Virus record (IMG/VR): IMGVR_UViG_3300023196_000692
Coordinates: 1-33,234 of that record
Strand: one strand, 5' to 3'
Length of the DNA stretch: 33,234 nt
DNA from: a virus
Of this stretch, positions 349-32,399 are shown piece after piece. The translations under genes were made by a program, and so were the position numbers. The first letter of the stretch is position 1, and each line of letters opens with the position of its first letter. The notes under the pieces were generated by a model, which searched no databases, was not told the DNA's origin, and was given only the letters and a program-made list of their open reading frames with translations.

Positions 349-1956
349 CTAACTCTCACTTAAATTCATTGATCTACCCACTTCTTGCCAGATAGCACCA
401 TTGTATCTGAATACATGAATGTCCGTCTTGCCATCACTAGCAGTTTCCGTAGGCTCGGTACTTGCTGGAAATTCAAATACTGTGTTCCATCCAATAGAAT
501 GTGAACCATTGTAATTGATTTCTAAACAAATAAATTGTCCTTCAACACCATTACTAGGAGCAGAGAAAGTTGTGTTTTCTGTAGTTTGATGATACGCATT
601 TGGTGATACTGCAACATCCCAGGCAACAGCATTAGATGATGAAGTAATAGCATCTTGTGTTAAGATACCAGCACCAGCTAAAGTTAAAGTTGTTGAAATA
701 GTTGTTGCTCCTGTCACAGCTAAAGTTGATCCATCAAAAGTTAGATTAGCTTCTCCGAGCAAAGCATTAGCACCCGAGACAGTAGCTATAGTATTATTTG
801 TTGAACCAGATAAAGTAGGTATTGTTAAACTAGAAAAAGCTGGAGGTGAACCAGCACCAGCACTTGTTAAAACTTGTCCACTTGACCCTGTAGCAATTGC
901 AACTGGATCACCAGAAGCATCATAAGAAATAATATTACCATCAGTACCAGGTGCAAGTTTAGCTAAAGTAATTGCATTATCATCAATAGAAAAAGTTAAA
1001 TCATACGGATCAGCATCAGTACCGTTAGAAGTATTAGTCCAGTTTGTTGTAATACCAGAACCAATAAACTTAACTTCTTTTCCATCCTCAATTGTAACTT
1101 CCGTACCATCATCATCCTCTAGTACAAAGTTTGTCATAGAACCAGAACCCGATGGTCCAGTTGGTCCCGTAGGTCCCGCTGATCCCGTAGGTCCCGCTGG
1201 TCCAGTTACAGAATTTCCTTGAGGTCCTGTTGGTCCCGTAGAACCTTGAGGTCCTGTAGGTCCTTGACTTCCTGTAGGTCCAGTTGGCCCCGAAGGTCCA
1301 TTTGGTCCAGTAGGTCCTGTAGCACCCGTTGCACCAGTAGGTAATCCAAAGGCAAATGCCCCAGTTGTAGAATTGTATGTAGCAGTAGCAGAACCACCAG
1401 CACCTACAGTAGATACAGAAACACTTGTTCCAGGTTTAGCTATAGGTTCTAAAGCAGTACCATTGCTGTCATACGCAACAATCTTATTTGCATTATTAGA
1501 AGCTGTGTTATCGTAAGGCCAAATTAATTCACCAGATGTACCTGTGCCAGATGTTGTTCTTTTTGTGTACGGTGATAATTGAATAGACCTAGAAATATTC
1601 TCAGACATTTGCTGATCAAATATAACTTGGTCATCTAATTCTGTTTCTAAAGAAGAAGCAGTCATTGATCCACCAGTAGAATACGCAGTAGTACGCTGTA
1701 TTGTATCAGCCGATAGAATTGTAACTATGTCATCTTCAGAAGGAAATTGACCCGAAGCAAAAGTAATAGAACCCGATCCAGAGGACAAGGAAACAGTATA
1801 ATGTGTAGTTAAAGTTTTTAATGTTGAATTAACATAGACAGCTAAATCTGATCCAGAATTAACTCTAAATGTAAAAGCATACGGACCTTCTTGACTACTA
1901 GAGCCAACGGTGTATTGCTTCTTACGATGTACGTCAGTTATTGTAAAATCTGCCAT
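349..1956 (-). CDS. Tail fibre protein with T7-type N-terminus and collagen-like repeat
   Basis: This 535-residue protein is probably the trimeric receptor-binding tail fibre. Residues 1-150 match the T7 gp17 N-terminal pattern that anchors the fibre to the tail: an early YTV followed by YAFTFRV, a DDIVTI segment, and a helical stretch with TELDDQ. Residues about 208-272 are a collagen-like Gly-X-Y run rich in GPT, GPS and GPQ triplets with one short break (NSVT). The C-terminal 260 residues are rich in Ser, Thr, Gly and Ala, with a final beta-rich domain containing CLEINYNG and EFPAST. Collagen-like shafts are common in phage fibres and form extended trimers. The gene lies at the end of the structural operon after the ejected proteins, as in T7-like genomes. 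No clear Shine-Dalgarno sequence precedes its ATG. Confidence 0.88.
1141..1335 (-). repeat. Collagen-like GXY coding repeat inside the fibre gene
   Basis: On the minus strand this stretch encodes about 20 Gly-X-Y triplets (fibre residues about 208-272). At DNA level it is a degenerate 9-base repeat built around GGTCCAGTT, GGTCCCGTA and GGTCCTGTA units on the plus strand. Such repeats tend to change copy number by recombination or slippage and therefore alter shaft length. An out-of-frame ORF seen here is a by-product of the repeat. Confidence 0.85.
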
Positions 1957-22056: not shown

Positions 22057-22260
22057 ATGAAACTAACTAAAGAAGTATGGAATGAATTATTAAGCGGTTT
22101 AGCATTACAAGAAATATCAAGAGATAGAGACGATGATCTTACTGATGCAGAAGAAAAAGTACAACAAGAAGCATTTAATTATTTAAATTTTATTGGAAAA
22201 GAAGAATGGAAAGAAAAAGTAATTGATGATGCTAAAGTTATAAAGAAAAGCTATGCCTAA
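22057..22260 (+). CDS. Unknown small acidic protein (67 aa)
   Basis: This is a short, mostly helical acidic protein (LALQEISRDRDDDLTDAEEK, then FNYLNFIGKEEWKEK). AAGGA lies upstream of the ATG. It overlaps the serine recombinase start by 8 bases, so recombinase translation may depend on it. No family is recognised. Confidence 0.65.
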   Translation: MKLTKEVWNELLSGLALQEISRDRDDDLTDAEEKVQQEAFNYLNFIGKEEWKEKVIDDAKVIKKSYA

Positions 22261-22984
22261 GAAATCATTCTTTCAAGATGCTTCAGAGTTAATGGGTAAC
22301 AACAAAGCTGGTAAAGCACACTACGGAAAGTATGTTGCGTACTACCGTGTATCAACAAAGAAACAAGGTGATACAGGTTATGGTTTAGAAGCACAGCAGA
22401 AAGCAGTCCAGGATTATTTAAATGGTGGTCGCTGGAAGTTAGTAGGGGAGTTTACTGAGGTAGAGAGTGGTCGTAACAATAGACGGATGCAGTTTAAAGA
22501 AGCATTAAAACTATGTAAGAAAACAGGTGCTAAACTTGTTGTTGCAAAGCTAGATCGTCTATCCAGGAATTTATTATTTCTTGCTACCTTGATGGAGTCT
22601 AACGTAGAATTTATTTGTTGTGATATGCCACAAGCCAATAGACTAACAATACAGATTATGGGTGCTATGGCAGAGGATGAGAGTGTTAGAATTAGAAAAA
22701 GAACAAAGGATGCATTAGCAGTAGCCAAGGCTAAAGGCGTTAAGCTAGGCAATCCATATGATAACATACGATTGAAGGCTGGTAAGAAGGGTAACAAGTC
22801 ACAAAACAAGGAAGCTGATTTATTTGCCTGGGAAATACTACCTTTGATTGACGGGATAAAGGCTTCTGGGTTATCATCATTAAAAGATATTGCAGACGCA
22901 TTAAATGCAAGAGGGGTAACTACACAGCGTGGTGGTACATGGCATCCATCTACGGTGTCTAATATTTTAAAGAGGAGGAAGTAA
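22253..22984 (+). CDS. Serine recombinase (resolvase/invertase type)
   Basis: The N-terminal catalytic domain begins VAYYRVSTKKQGDTGYGLEAQ, with nucleophile Ser34 in YRVST, followed by AKLDRLSRN (Asp101, Arg102, Arg105), both invariant in the family. GRNNRRMQF and MAEDESVRIRKRTKDAL (the E helix region) follow. The C-terminus (about residues 190-243) is a helix-turn-helix of the type DIADALNARGVTTQRGG.WHPSTV found in serine recombinases. At 243 residues it lacks the long zinc-ribbon/coiled-coil of large serine integrases, so resolution or inversion is more likely than phage integration. It couples to the next gene by TAATG. Confidence 0.93.
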   Translation: MPKKSFFQDASELMGNNKAGKAHYGKYVAYYRVSTKKQGDTGYGLEAQQKAVQDYLNGGRWKLVGEFTEVESGRNNRRMQFKEALKLCKKTGAKLVVAKLDRLSRNLLFLATLMESNVEFICCDMPQANRLTIQIMGAMAEDESVRIRKRTKDALAVAKAKGVKLGNPYDNIRLKAGKKGNKSQNKEADLFAWEILPLIDGIKASGLSSLKDIADALNARGVTTQRGGTWHPSTVSNILKRRK

Positions 22985-23505: not shown

Positions 23506-23544
23506 TGACTATTATTTTATGTATTTGTGTGCTGTGGTTACACT

Positions 23545-24516
23545 ATGAATAATCTGATAAAAAAAGATAGTTCTAAACATTTAAAGATTAAGGACTTACA
23601 AAAAGAAGCCATATATTATGCCAAACAGAGTGTGGCTGAGAATACAAAGAGGGCGTACACAGCCGATTGGAGTGCTTTTGTATCCTTTTGCAAAGAGTAT
23701 GATGTCAATGCTTTACCAGCCAGTTATGAGAATATTGCTCATTTCTTGGTTAGAGAAGCTAGAACCTTAAAACATTCTACATTACAAAGACGATTAGGCG
23801 TTATTCGGACCTACCACCGATTAAAAGGGCATTACCTGGACCCTCATCATCCTGTTTTAGAGACGGTGTGGCGTGGAATTAAGCGTGTCAAGGGAACAAA
23901 AACAGAAAGTAAAGAAGCCATTTGGACATCGGATTTAAAGAAGTTTATTGATGAATTAGAGTACCACAGCATTGGCAATATACGAGATAGAGCAGTTTTA
24001 TTATTTGGGTTTTTATCGGCCCAACGAAGAGAGAATATAGCGGAAGTGCGTGTAGAAGATTTAACCTGGAGTCCGCAAGGTATTATCTGGAAGATGCCTA
24101 AATCCAAGACAGATCAAAGCGGGGAAGGGAAGCTCATACCAATCCCCTATATGCGTACTCCTAAGTATTGTGCAGTAACACAGTTAGAGAATTGGTTGCG
24201 TGTTAGTGGCATTAAAGAGGGCTATGTGTTTAGACGTATTTTTAAGAATAATGCTGTGAATGAGAAAGACCAGCCAATTTGCGGGGCTACCGTGAATGGT
24301 ATTGTGAAGAGAACAGCAAAATTAGCGGGGTATAATCCAGAGAAGTACGGGGGTCATAGCCTTCGTATTGGCTTTATTAGTCAAACAAGAAATACCAATG
24401 CTCCCGATCATACGATTATGAAAGTAACAGGCCACCGTGATACCCGCATGATTGATCATTATGCCCAGGAAGGTAATATCTTTCAAAACTTAGCTACCCA
24501 TAAACTACGCTTATAA
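23545..24516 (+). CDS. int: Tyrosine recombinase / phage integrase
   Basis: A full catalytic set is visible in 323 residues: Arg161 in AQRRENI, Lys188 in SKTD, His271 and Arg274 in GGHSLR, His297 in TGHRDTR and the nucleophile Tyr306 in IDHYAQ. The N-terminal 115 residues form the core-binding SAM-like domain (NTKRAYTADWSAFVSFCK, RRLGVIRTYHRLKG). The start at ATG 23545 is preferred to a GTG 18 bases upstream. No clear ribosome-binding site is present, so expression may be low or coupled. The gene is flanked by imperfect direct repeats and followed by a non-coding region with palindromes, as expected for an attP next to int. Confidence 0.93.
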   Translation: MNNLIKKDSSKHLKIKDLQKEAIYYAKQSVAENTKRAYTADWSAFVSFCKEYDVNALPASYENIAHFLVREARTLKHSTLQRRLGVIRTYHRLKGHYLDPHHPVLETVWRGIKRVKGTKTESKEAIWTSDLKKFIDELEYHSIGNIRDRAVLLFGFLSAQRRENIAEVRVEDLTWSPQGIIWKMPKSKTDQSGEGKLIPIPYMRTPKYCAVTQLENWLRVSGIKEGYVFRRIFKNNAVNEKDQPICGATVNGIVKRTAKLAGYNPEKYGGHSLRIGFISQTRNTNAPDHTIMKVTGHRDTRMIDHYAQEGNIFQNLATHKLRL

Positions 24517-29960: not shown

Positions 29961-30475
29961 TACTTTATCTGACTTAAAGGGTTATCTAATGATAGCTTAA
30001 TTCTTTTATCAATAGTTTCTTCTAGCTTTGTCATTGCTTCATTAATATCTTTATCCAACTCATCCATGTCATTCTCAATTGATGTTAATGTTTCTTTTAA
30101 ATCTTTACTATTATCTCTAGCATCTTGTTTTACTTGTTGCTCTACATCCTCAACAATAGACTCTATACGTCTTACATCAGTACGCAGATCATTCTTTAAT
30201 TCATTAGCAACATCAGACACCAAAGATACTTCTTGTATAATCATAGACAACTCACCCTGGATCATGTCTACTTCTGATTGCACTAACTCTAATCGTTTAT
30301 CAAAGTCACTTAAATCTGGTGCAACATATTCTTGTATCTGTTCTTTCATGTCCAGGTAGTCCTTATAAAATTCAAAACCTCCCCACATAGCACCACCCAA
30401 AGTTGTAAGGGCAGTAATTACTAAAAAAATTTTACCGCCTTTAAATTTTAATCCACCAAATTCTAGTTCCGCCAT
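29960..30475 (-). CDS. N-terminally anchored coiled-coil membrane protein (171 aa)
   Basis: It starts MAELEFGGLKFKGGKIFLVITALTTLGG, a short basic head and one membrane span (residues about 15-35). The rest is a long acidic coiled coil (residues about 60-165, for example DVRRIESIVEDVEQQVKQ). The topology (single anchor, long periplasmic or cytoplasmic rod) resembles an inner-membrane spanin, and the neighbouring exported proteins might be the outer partner; the sequence does not prove it. It overlaps the acidic exported-protein gene by 13 bases. Confidence 0.68.
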   Translation of the reverse strand: MAELEFGGLKFKGGKIFLVITALTTLGGAMWGGFEFYKDYLDMKEQIQEYVAPDLSDFDKRLELVQSEVDMIQGELSMIIQEVSLVSDVANELKNDLRTDVRRIESIVEDVEQQVKQDARDNSKDLKETLTSIENDMDELDKDINEAMTKLEETIDKRIKLSLDNPLSQIK

Positions 30476-31659
30476 TGACTCTCCACCATTTCGTTATGTA
30501 ACCCATCACTACCAACAAACAAAAGATATTGGCCCATAAGGTTATAGTTAATTTCACCATCAGCTAGTACAACATCATCAAAGAAACCTTGACGGTCCTC
30601 TAATTCTTTTTGACTTTGAAAAAATGATTTACTATCAGCTAACACTTGCATAACAATTAATGTTTTTAATTGATTAGTAGCATCGTATCTTTTCTTATCA
30701 TCCATTGACTTAACAATTTTCTTACCAACTTTTTCTTTAGCTGACTCTTCCTTCTTTGGTTCTTCCTTTGGTTTTTCTTTAGGCTCTTCCTTTACTTCTG
30801 CTTTTTCTACTTCTTTTGTTTCTACTTCTGGCTCTGTCATTTCTTCTTCAATAGTTTCTTCTACTGTTGTTTCTATTTCAGCTTCAATCTCTGCTTCTAT
30901 TTCTATTTCTATTTCGGCTACCTCTATTTCTATCTCTGGCATTTCCATCTCTATCATTTCAGCCATCTCTGTTTCTACAGTTTCATAAGTTACTTCTTCC
31001 ATTTCTATAGGTTCCATTGACATACCTTCATCAGTATCCACCATGTCATTACTGTCAAAAATATCTTCAACAATATTTATAATTTCTTCTGGTGCATCTA
31101 TGTTAAGAGCAACAAACATTTCTACAGTAGTTATTTCTTGGCTAATAATGGTATTGATAACATTATATAACACATTGATTGATACATCATCGAACATGGG
31201 GCCTATAGCAAGATTAATATCTCTACCTCCAATCTCAATAATGACTGTCGTTAAACTACCAGCAAAGTCAAAACTGTTTTCATATGTTTGATAGCCACTT
31301 GCAGTACCACTAGCAGATAAAATATCAGTACCAGAAAAGACATTGGTGTTTCCATCCTTACCTGTGATATGCATATAGATAGAGTCACTAGCATCTTGCT
31401 TGTCTACTTTAATTGTATAATTAGTTTGACCTCCATTAGAAATATTAAGATCAGATATGTCTACTGTCTGTATAAATGTAGTTCCCATATTAGGAACACC
31501 CATTGCTGATGTAGAGTTACCCGATCCAGTAATCATAGCACACTTGTCTGTACCTAATTGACCACAATTATTTCCAGAAAGTATACTAGCTGGGCCAGGC
31601 TCCCCCCCAGTCTTGGTCCATATCACCTTCTTTAGATGATACAACGTAGTCATTGTCAC
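30463..31659 (-). CDS. Acidic repeat protein, 3' part of a frame-split exported protein
   Basis: Only from the G7 tract (about 31605) leftward does this frame look like protein; its first 19 residues (MTMTTLYHLKKVIWTKTGG) are an alternative reading of the end of the upstream ORF. The body has a beta domain (about residues 25-170, with CGQLGTDKC, MGVPNMGTTFIQTVDIS, IEIGGRDINLAIGP), then a very acidic Glu/Ile/Met repeat region (about 208-285), a Lys/Glu/Pro linker (283-310) and a helical C-terminal domain. Removing one G from the tract joins it to the upstream ORF as a single 481-residue secreted protein. Function unknown; adhesion or envelope association is possible. Similar exported beta-domain proteins occur in marine phages. 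Confidence 0.72.
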   Translation of the reverse strand: MTMTTLYHLKKVIWTKTGGEPGPASILSGNNCGQLGTDKCAMITGSGNSTSAMGVPNMGTTFIQTVDISDLNISNGGQTNYTIKVDKQDASDSIYMHITGKDGNTNVFSGTDILSASGTASGYQTYENSFDFAGSLTTVIIEIGGRDINLAIGPMFDDVSINVLYNVINTIISQEITTVEMFVALNIDAPEEIINIVEDIFDSNDMVDTDEGMSMEPIEMEEVTYETVETEMAEMIEMEMPEIEIEVAEIEIEIEAEIEAEIETTVEETIEEEMTEPEVETKEVEKAEVKEEPKEKPKEEPKKEESAKEKVGKKIVKSMDDKKRYDATNQLKTLIVMQVLADSKSFFQSQKELEDRQGFFDDVVLADGEINYNLMGQYLLFVGSDGLHNEMVESQWRN

Positions 31660-31909
31660 CGTCTAATAAATCACCAGAGTTTTCATTGGTAACTGTTGTA
31701 GTTGTAATGTCTTTAATTGTTTCTATTGTAGTAAGAACACCATCTGGTTTATGCTCTACTGTTTCTGTTACTGTTTCAATAATAGTTTCTGTAACACCAG
31801 GAGTACATAATCCAGTAACATCTGTTGTGCAGTCTACAGCTTTACTAGAAGAGGATAGGAATACCAATATACATAGCCATAGCCATAAATAAAAACTTCT
31901 CAAGGTCAT
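31586..31909 (-). CDS. Exported Thr/Val-rich protein, 5' part of a frame-split gene
   Basis: The start is certain: AAGGAGG lies 6 bases before the ATG. Residues 1-25 are a signal peptide (FYLWLWLCILVFLSSSSKA) followed by DCTTDVTGLC and a Thr/Val/Glu-rich stretch (ETIIETVTETV). Residues 90-103 (SSKEGDMDQDWGG) lead into a run of seven G (31602-31608), after which this frame ends quickly (AWPS). The neighbouring frame continues immediately with EPGPASILSGNNC, which fits better. The two parts therefore probably belong to one gene. The first 65 bases overlap the preceding gene. Confidence 0.72.
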   Translation of the reverse strand: MTLRSFYLWLWLCILVFLSSSSKAVDCTTDVTGLCTPGVTETIIETVTETVEHKPDGVLTTIETIKDITTTTVTNENSGDLLDGDNDYVVSSKEGDMDQDWGGAWPS

Positions 31910-32399
31910 GATTATCCTCCTTCCTTATTACAATTTGATTTTCTTTTAGTAATCTAGCTTTGACTAAGCTACCCTCTGGCATAAGATGTACATTGTCTAA
32001 CCATGCATCTCTTGCATCATTTCCTATTTTACTTTCACCATTAATATTTACTGGGGCGTAAGTACCAGCGTTCCATAATGCATCGAACACTCTTGGTTCA
32101 GATGCTAATAAAGTCACCGCACCAACTTTCATTTGAAATTGGTATAACTTTGAAGAGAGTAATAATAATTCACAGGTTTCATCTGTGACTGTGATACCCG
32201 AACTAATACCAAATATCTGGGTTTGCACCGCACCCGCTACAGCAGTCTTACAAATATTAGAATTGTTTACAACAACGGAAGGGGAGTTAGCAGTACCAGG
32301 CGTTGAGGTCACTACCGTACTAGACACCGTGTTAATATCCGCACCTAAAATTTTTGTAGAAAAAAATAAACTAAGAAATAAGATAAGTATAAACTTCAT
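31845..32399 (-). CDS. Exported protein of unknown function (184 aa)
   Basis: Residues 1-19 are a signal peptide (FILILFLSLFFSTKILG). The mature part has a Thr/Ser/Val-rich start (NTVSSTVVTSTPGTANSPS), two Cys (NICKTAV, DETCELL), a helix SSKLYQFQMKVGAVTLLASEPRVFDALWNAG and a hydrophobic C-terminus (FLFMAMAMYIGIPILF) that could anchor it. Exported proteins of this layout are found beside the acidic repeat protein in marine phages, but I cannot name a function. It begins in an ATGA overlap with the Cys-rich mini-ORF. Confidence 0.7.
   Translation of the reverse strand: MKFILILFLSLFFSTKILGADINTVSSTVVTSTPGTANSPSVVVNNSNICKTAVAGAVQTQIFGISSGITVTDETCELLLLSSKLYQFQMKVGAVTLLASEPRVFDALWNAGTYAPVNINGESKIGNDARDAWLDNVHLMPEGSLVKARLLKENQIVIRKEDNHDLEKFLFMAMAMYIGIPILF

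Follow-up and report, generated by a model that had tools for sequence, protein, structure and literature searches.

An inherited +1 frame change beside a G7 run splits the gene of a predicted exported protein in pelagiphage-like viruses

Frameshifting with a net change of +1 or -2 has been described in tailed phages, with a -2 shift in the tail assembly genes of phage Mu and +1 shifts on CCC in structural genes of the Listeria phages PSA, A118, and A500 (PMC5009743). Leaky decoding has been described at a G7 run in the herpesvirus thymidine kinase gene (PMC5009743). In translationally coupled split genes, the hallmark is a stop and a start codon lying within 10 nucleotides of each other (PMC3711429). 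In Escherichia coli, G-only heptamers are poor -1 shifters, with the lowest value, 0.018%, seen for G_GG.G_GG.U (PMC4066793).

Here, we analyze a split gene in a pelagiphage-like virus record, whose full length of 33,234 bases we call the window. The locus is similar to the phage frameshifting systems in that it concerns a phage gene, has a net +1 direction, and carries a shift-prone sequence just before the stop of the 0-frame, with a short N-terminal form and a longer joined form to be expected. It differs from them since most members of the gene's family are unshifted, and since the window gene encodes a predicted exported beta-sandwich protein instead of a tail chaperone or a known major structural protein; moreover, the Listeria sites are CCC based, while the window site is G7A. 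With the herpesvirus thymidine kinase gene it shares an indel allele associated with a G7 run, at which leaky decoding could restore some full-length product, although there the indel is in the run, here it is next to it, and the organism is another one. As in translationally coupled split genes, a stop is followed by an ATG one base on in three of the four distinct shifted alleles, whereas the window allele has lost this ATG and the gene of the family is a single frame.

The split gene lies on the minus strand, to which all coordinates of its parts refer. The upstream ORF (31586-31909) encodes 107 amino acids, with a signal-peptide-like N terminus followed by a Thr-rich predicted beta-hairpin, and is homologous to the N-terminal part of a one-frame protein in relatives; a Shine-Dalgarno-like AAGGAGG (31916-31922) precedes its ATG. 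It ends in D-W-G-G-A-W-P-S and a stop (GAC TGG GGG GGA GCC TGG CCC AGC TAG). The run of seven G within this end, followed by A (31602-31608; C7 on the plus strand), reads G_GGG_GGA in the upstream frame and is the sole run of six or more G or C across the window. It is followed by GCCT (31597-31600), four bases at the place where the family has an invariant Gln codon, which is where the alignment puts the frame change; the TAG of the upstream frame (31586-31588) occupies a codon position identical to that of TAA in L084 and L086. Just beyond it, ATA (31582-31584) stands in the place of a conserved ATG (the Met of P-A-S-M) that L057, L084, L086, and the majority of relatives have; the window's next in-frame ATG comes 15 codons later. 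The downstream part (30463-31605), 380 amino acids in the other frame, consists of a predicted beta-sandwich domain, acidic repeats, and a conserved helical C terminus, and is 66 to 94% identical in amino acids to the matching part of one-frame relatives. The ORF that contains it is longer (30463-31659), and its likeness to relatives begins only at the G run.

The gene preceding the split gene (31845-32399, minus strand) also has a signal-peptide-like start and overlaps it by 65 nucleotides in another frame. Elsewhere in the window, a 2OG-Fe(II) oxygenase family protein (Pfam PF13640; 29165-29740, minus strand) is encoded between a coiled-coil gene and a lysozyme gene, and, as read from the sequence, a collagen-like protein with G-P-T repeats (349-1956, minus strand) is probably a tail fiber or appendage. 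Serine recombinase-like and tyrosine recombinase-like ORFs (22253-22984 and 23527-24516, plus strand), likewise read from the sequence, lie close together, and a temperate lifestyle is possible.

Homologous sites were collected from IMG/VR by two protein scans and three pattern scans, which gave 181 distinct sites among the matches listed. In 177 of these 181 sites, a single frame runs through D-W-G-G-Q-G-P-A-S-M; across 39 aligned intact proteins, the D, W, G, G, Q (Q104), G, and A of this motif do not vary. The two ORFs of the window correspond to a single gene in relatives. A homologue from a cultured phage, gp53 of Pelagibacter phage HTVC115P (MN698247, QGZ18288.1), is 66% identical over the matched pieces and lies in the same type of gene neighborhood; it differs from the window gene in being an uninterrupted single frame of 1401 nucleotides. 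Neither half was assigned to a family in Pfam or PHROGs at the thresholds used, and the query used found no homologue in bacterial genomes. Elsewhere, the 1.4-kb gene is seldom disrupted, with 2 cases among 148 relatives: L155, in the upstream part, and L208, in the C-terminal part.

An earlier, sequence-only reading of the window had taken the two ORFs for halves of one secreted protein, with the stop four codons past the G run, the boundary at the run, a joined frame that would be 481 residues long, and the first 19 residues of the downstream ORF as an out-of-frame reading of the upstream end and not a real N terminus. All of this agrees with our analysis. The uninterrupted gene that it proposed to look for exists in the 177 intact sites, and relatives encode one protein, not the two separate proteins that it named as the contrary outcome.

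An AlphaFold2 model of the intact relative L002 (mean pLDDT of the whole model, 55) comprises a signal helix, a beta-hairpin (residues 38 to 80), a beta-sandwich (142 to 267), an acidic part that is disordered, and a helical end that is predicted only weakly. The shift site falls inside a low-confidence linker (residues 103 to 112). The predicted sandwich, which corresponds to 31108-31485 (minus strand) in the window and has a pLDDT mostly of 70 to 90 there, is carbohydrate-binding-module-like and aligns to CBM16, Fbs1, and phage tail-fiber domains at Z 8 to 9; many unrelated jelly rolls are tied at these values, and thus only the general fold is indicated.

The shifted state was found in the window, L001, L057, L084, and L086, i.e., four distinct alleles plus the window, in two lineages and always at the same codon. 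The shifted contigs come from different metagenomes. The window allele is also present in L001, at 99.2% nucleotide identity (34 mismatches in 4590 nucleotides), and in L057, at 91%. The second lineage, L084 and L086, carries its +1 shift at the same codon and is distant from the window, with 113 to 118 of 168 codons differing. By alignment, the extra base sits in the codon after the G run, which is CAA or CAG in intact genes, GCCT in the window lineage, and CAAA in L084 and L086. A tree forcing all shifted rows together was rejected (p-AU 0.001 for both the upstream 249 nucleotides and the downstream 330 nucleotides), and parsimony needs three changes. Since a single origin is rejected and the same allele occurs in differing contigs, the +1 split is a real allele, inherited and with at least two origins, and not an error; we regard its position and recurrence and the intact downstream frame as likewise shown. 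A pattern allowing shifts of -2 to +2 gave in-frame and +1 sites only, among the matches listed. One further match of +1 length, L293, was discarded as it does not look like a relative.

The shifted alleles have more in common than the indel. G7A is present in four of four distinct shifted alleles, while only 5 of the 177 intact sites have G7 (Fisher 3e-6, without correction for kinship); taken as one prestated test on the second lineage alone, the association is about 0.03. All shifted alleles stop in the 0-frame at the same codon. However, 22 of the 177 intact sites would gain a stop at that codon after a one-base insertion, and therefore the shared stop alone is a weak sign.

The downstream frame is uninterrupted in every shifted contig (that of L084 ends 173 codons into the downstream part), and no further lesion was seen in the downstream part of the shifted alleles. 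Between L084 and L086, 57 codon differences are synonymous and 7 nonsynonymous (dN/dS 0.04), and the private changes of L086 are 11 synonymous and 1 nonsynonymous; by these counts, the downstream part of L086 appears to be under strong constraint. The window and L001 differ by three synonymous and no nonsynonymous changes, and the private changes of the window relative to its neighbors are two synonymous and six nonsynonymous, including the conserved Met and an Ala of the C-terminal part, which suggests weaker constraint in the window lineage, on small numbers. The region around the site is mosaic: L086 matches L147 to L149 on both flanks but L084 in the 150 nucleotides before the site. We read this L084/L086 segment, which ends at the shift site, as small-scale recombination at the linker. 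Because of this mosaicism, the downstream halves may for a large part of their history have belonged to intact genes. An excess of nonsynonymous changes between the window and L057 was considered as a sign of decay and set aside, since part of it (e.g., N-S for G-G) is shared with the intact L003 and is due to recombination.

The reading that we prefer, with a probability of roughly 0.38, is that a recurrent +1 indel is tolerated at the interdomain linker and that the C-terminal part is reached by net +1 or -2 slippage on G7A. The indel has arisen at least twice. It lies directly after G7A, in a codon of the linker that separates the N-terminal hairpin from the beta-sandwich, is inherited within each lineage, and in one of them moves on a short recombining segment. 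A fraction of ribosomes would then move by net +1 (or -2) on G_GGG_GGA, which is present in every shifted allele and by inspection permits both +1 and -2 re-pairing, and would make some full-length exported protein, while the remaining ribosomes would stop four codons later and release a short form of 107 residues. Such a shift would fuse the two halves, and the sandwich domain would retain a signal peptide; this peptide is encoded only upstream, so that export of the C-terminal domain would depend on the joined product. The recurrence in two lineages, the sharing of G7A, the rarity of disruptions elsewhere, and the intact, apparently constrained downstream part favor this reading, as do the precedents in phage Mu, the Listeria phages, and the herpesvirus gene given above. 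The G run could also act as a putative anti-Shine-Dalgarno pairing element. Against slippage stand the behavior of G-only heptamers in E. coli, the relaxed-looking changes in the window lineage, the recombination, and the lack of a shared stimulator: by 80-nucleotide folding energy, which is low in the window and weak in L084 and L086, no common stable downstream RNA structure was found among the shifted alleles.

According to a different explanation, the gene has undergone fission with translational coupling, whereby ribosomes stop at TAA or TAG and restart at a nearby ATG, and the C-terminal part is made as a separate, nonexported protein. The stop is followed by an ATG one base on in L057 (TAG-T-ATG), L084 (TAA-T-ATG), and L086 (TAA-C-ATG), a distance within the published mark of 10 nucleotides (PMC3711429); in L084 and L086, AAAGG lies ten bases ahead of this ATG, and the split falls in the low-confidence linker of the model. 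However, the window and L001 have ATA in place of this ATG, with the long gap to the next in-frame ATG described above, the restart product would be without the signal peptide that upstream-complete relatives have, and a stop at that codon may readily arise by chance, as the hypothetical one-base insertions into intact sites indicate. We consider restart possible but somewhat unlikely.

We hold to be doubtful, to the same degree, that the split is a plain loss of function, with the C-terminal part not made, the gene not needed in some hosts, and the untranslated part refreshed again and again through exchange with intact relatives by recombination. The relaxed-looking changes in the window lineage, the strong mosaicism around the site, and the small minority that shifted alleles represent are all consistent with such a loss. 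It fits less well with two independent events at the same codon, of the same sign, with the same G7A and the same stop, with the few disruptions elsewhere in the gene, and with the strong constraint seen in L086 and in the L084-L086 comparison.

The sequence-only reading had placed the indel in the G run itself and had considered a phase-variable tract; in such a tract, slipped-strand mispairing would turn production of the joined protein on or off. The presence of G7 at the junction does invite this idea; yet five distinct intact relatives (L002, L035, L047, L051, and L272) read G7 in frame, and the run is either 4 or 7 long in the 181 sites listed, among which no G5, G6, or G8 allele was seen, i.e., no tract-length alleles differing by one or two bases. 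Since the run is in frame in intact relatives and the indel lies outside it, in the next codon, phase variation is rejected as highly improbable. Sequencing or assembly error, suggested by the homopolymer adjoining the site, is for practical purposes refuted: three mutually different contigs share one allele, two others have an independent +1 allele, the contigs derive from different metagenomes, and the extra base lies outside the homopolymer. For the programmed +1 shift that had been the other option, the evidence points both ways: the shared G7A and the retained downstream frame speak for some means of reaching the second frame, but most of the family, being unshifted, has no need of it, and no conserved stimulator was found among the shifted alleles.

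Slippage on G7A at a tolerated linker indel is thus ranked above restart and loss, both of them serious rivals, and the reality and inheritance of the allele are much firmer than any of the three. A bolder proposal, which we deem clearly unlikely, is that the slippery G7A repeatedly lets wild pelagiphages tolerate a +1 indel, that a once-fused exported protein would thereby become two frameshift-expressed forms, and that a short recombining segment would carry the site from strain to strain. If no joined protein is made, the annotated split is still a genuine allele rather than a fault of assembly, and part of the protein would be dispensable in some phages. If it is made, closely related wild phages would hold frameshifted and unshifted versions of one gene, the frameshift having two independent origins, and the steps by which programmed frameshifting evolves would be directly testable. 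Should the proposal of a repeatedly permissive G7A be true, the origin of programmed frameshifting could be watched as a polymorphism.
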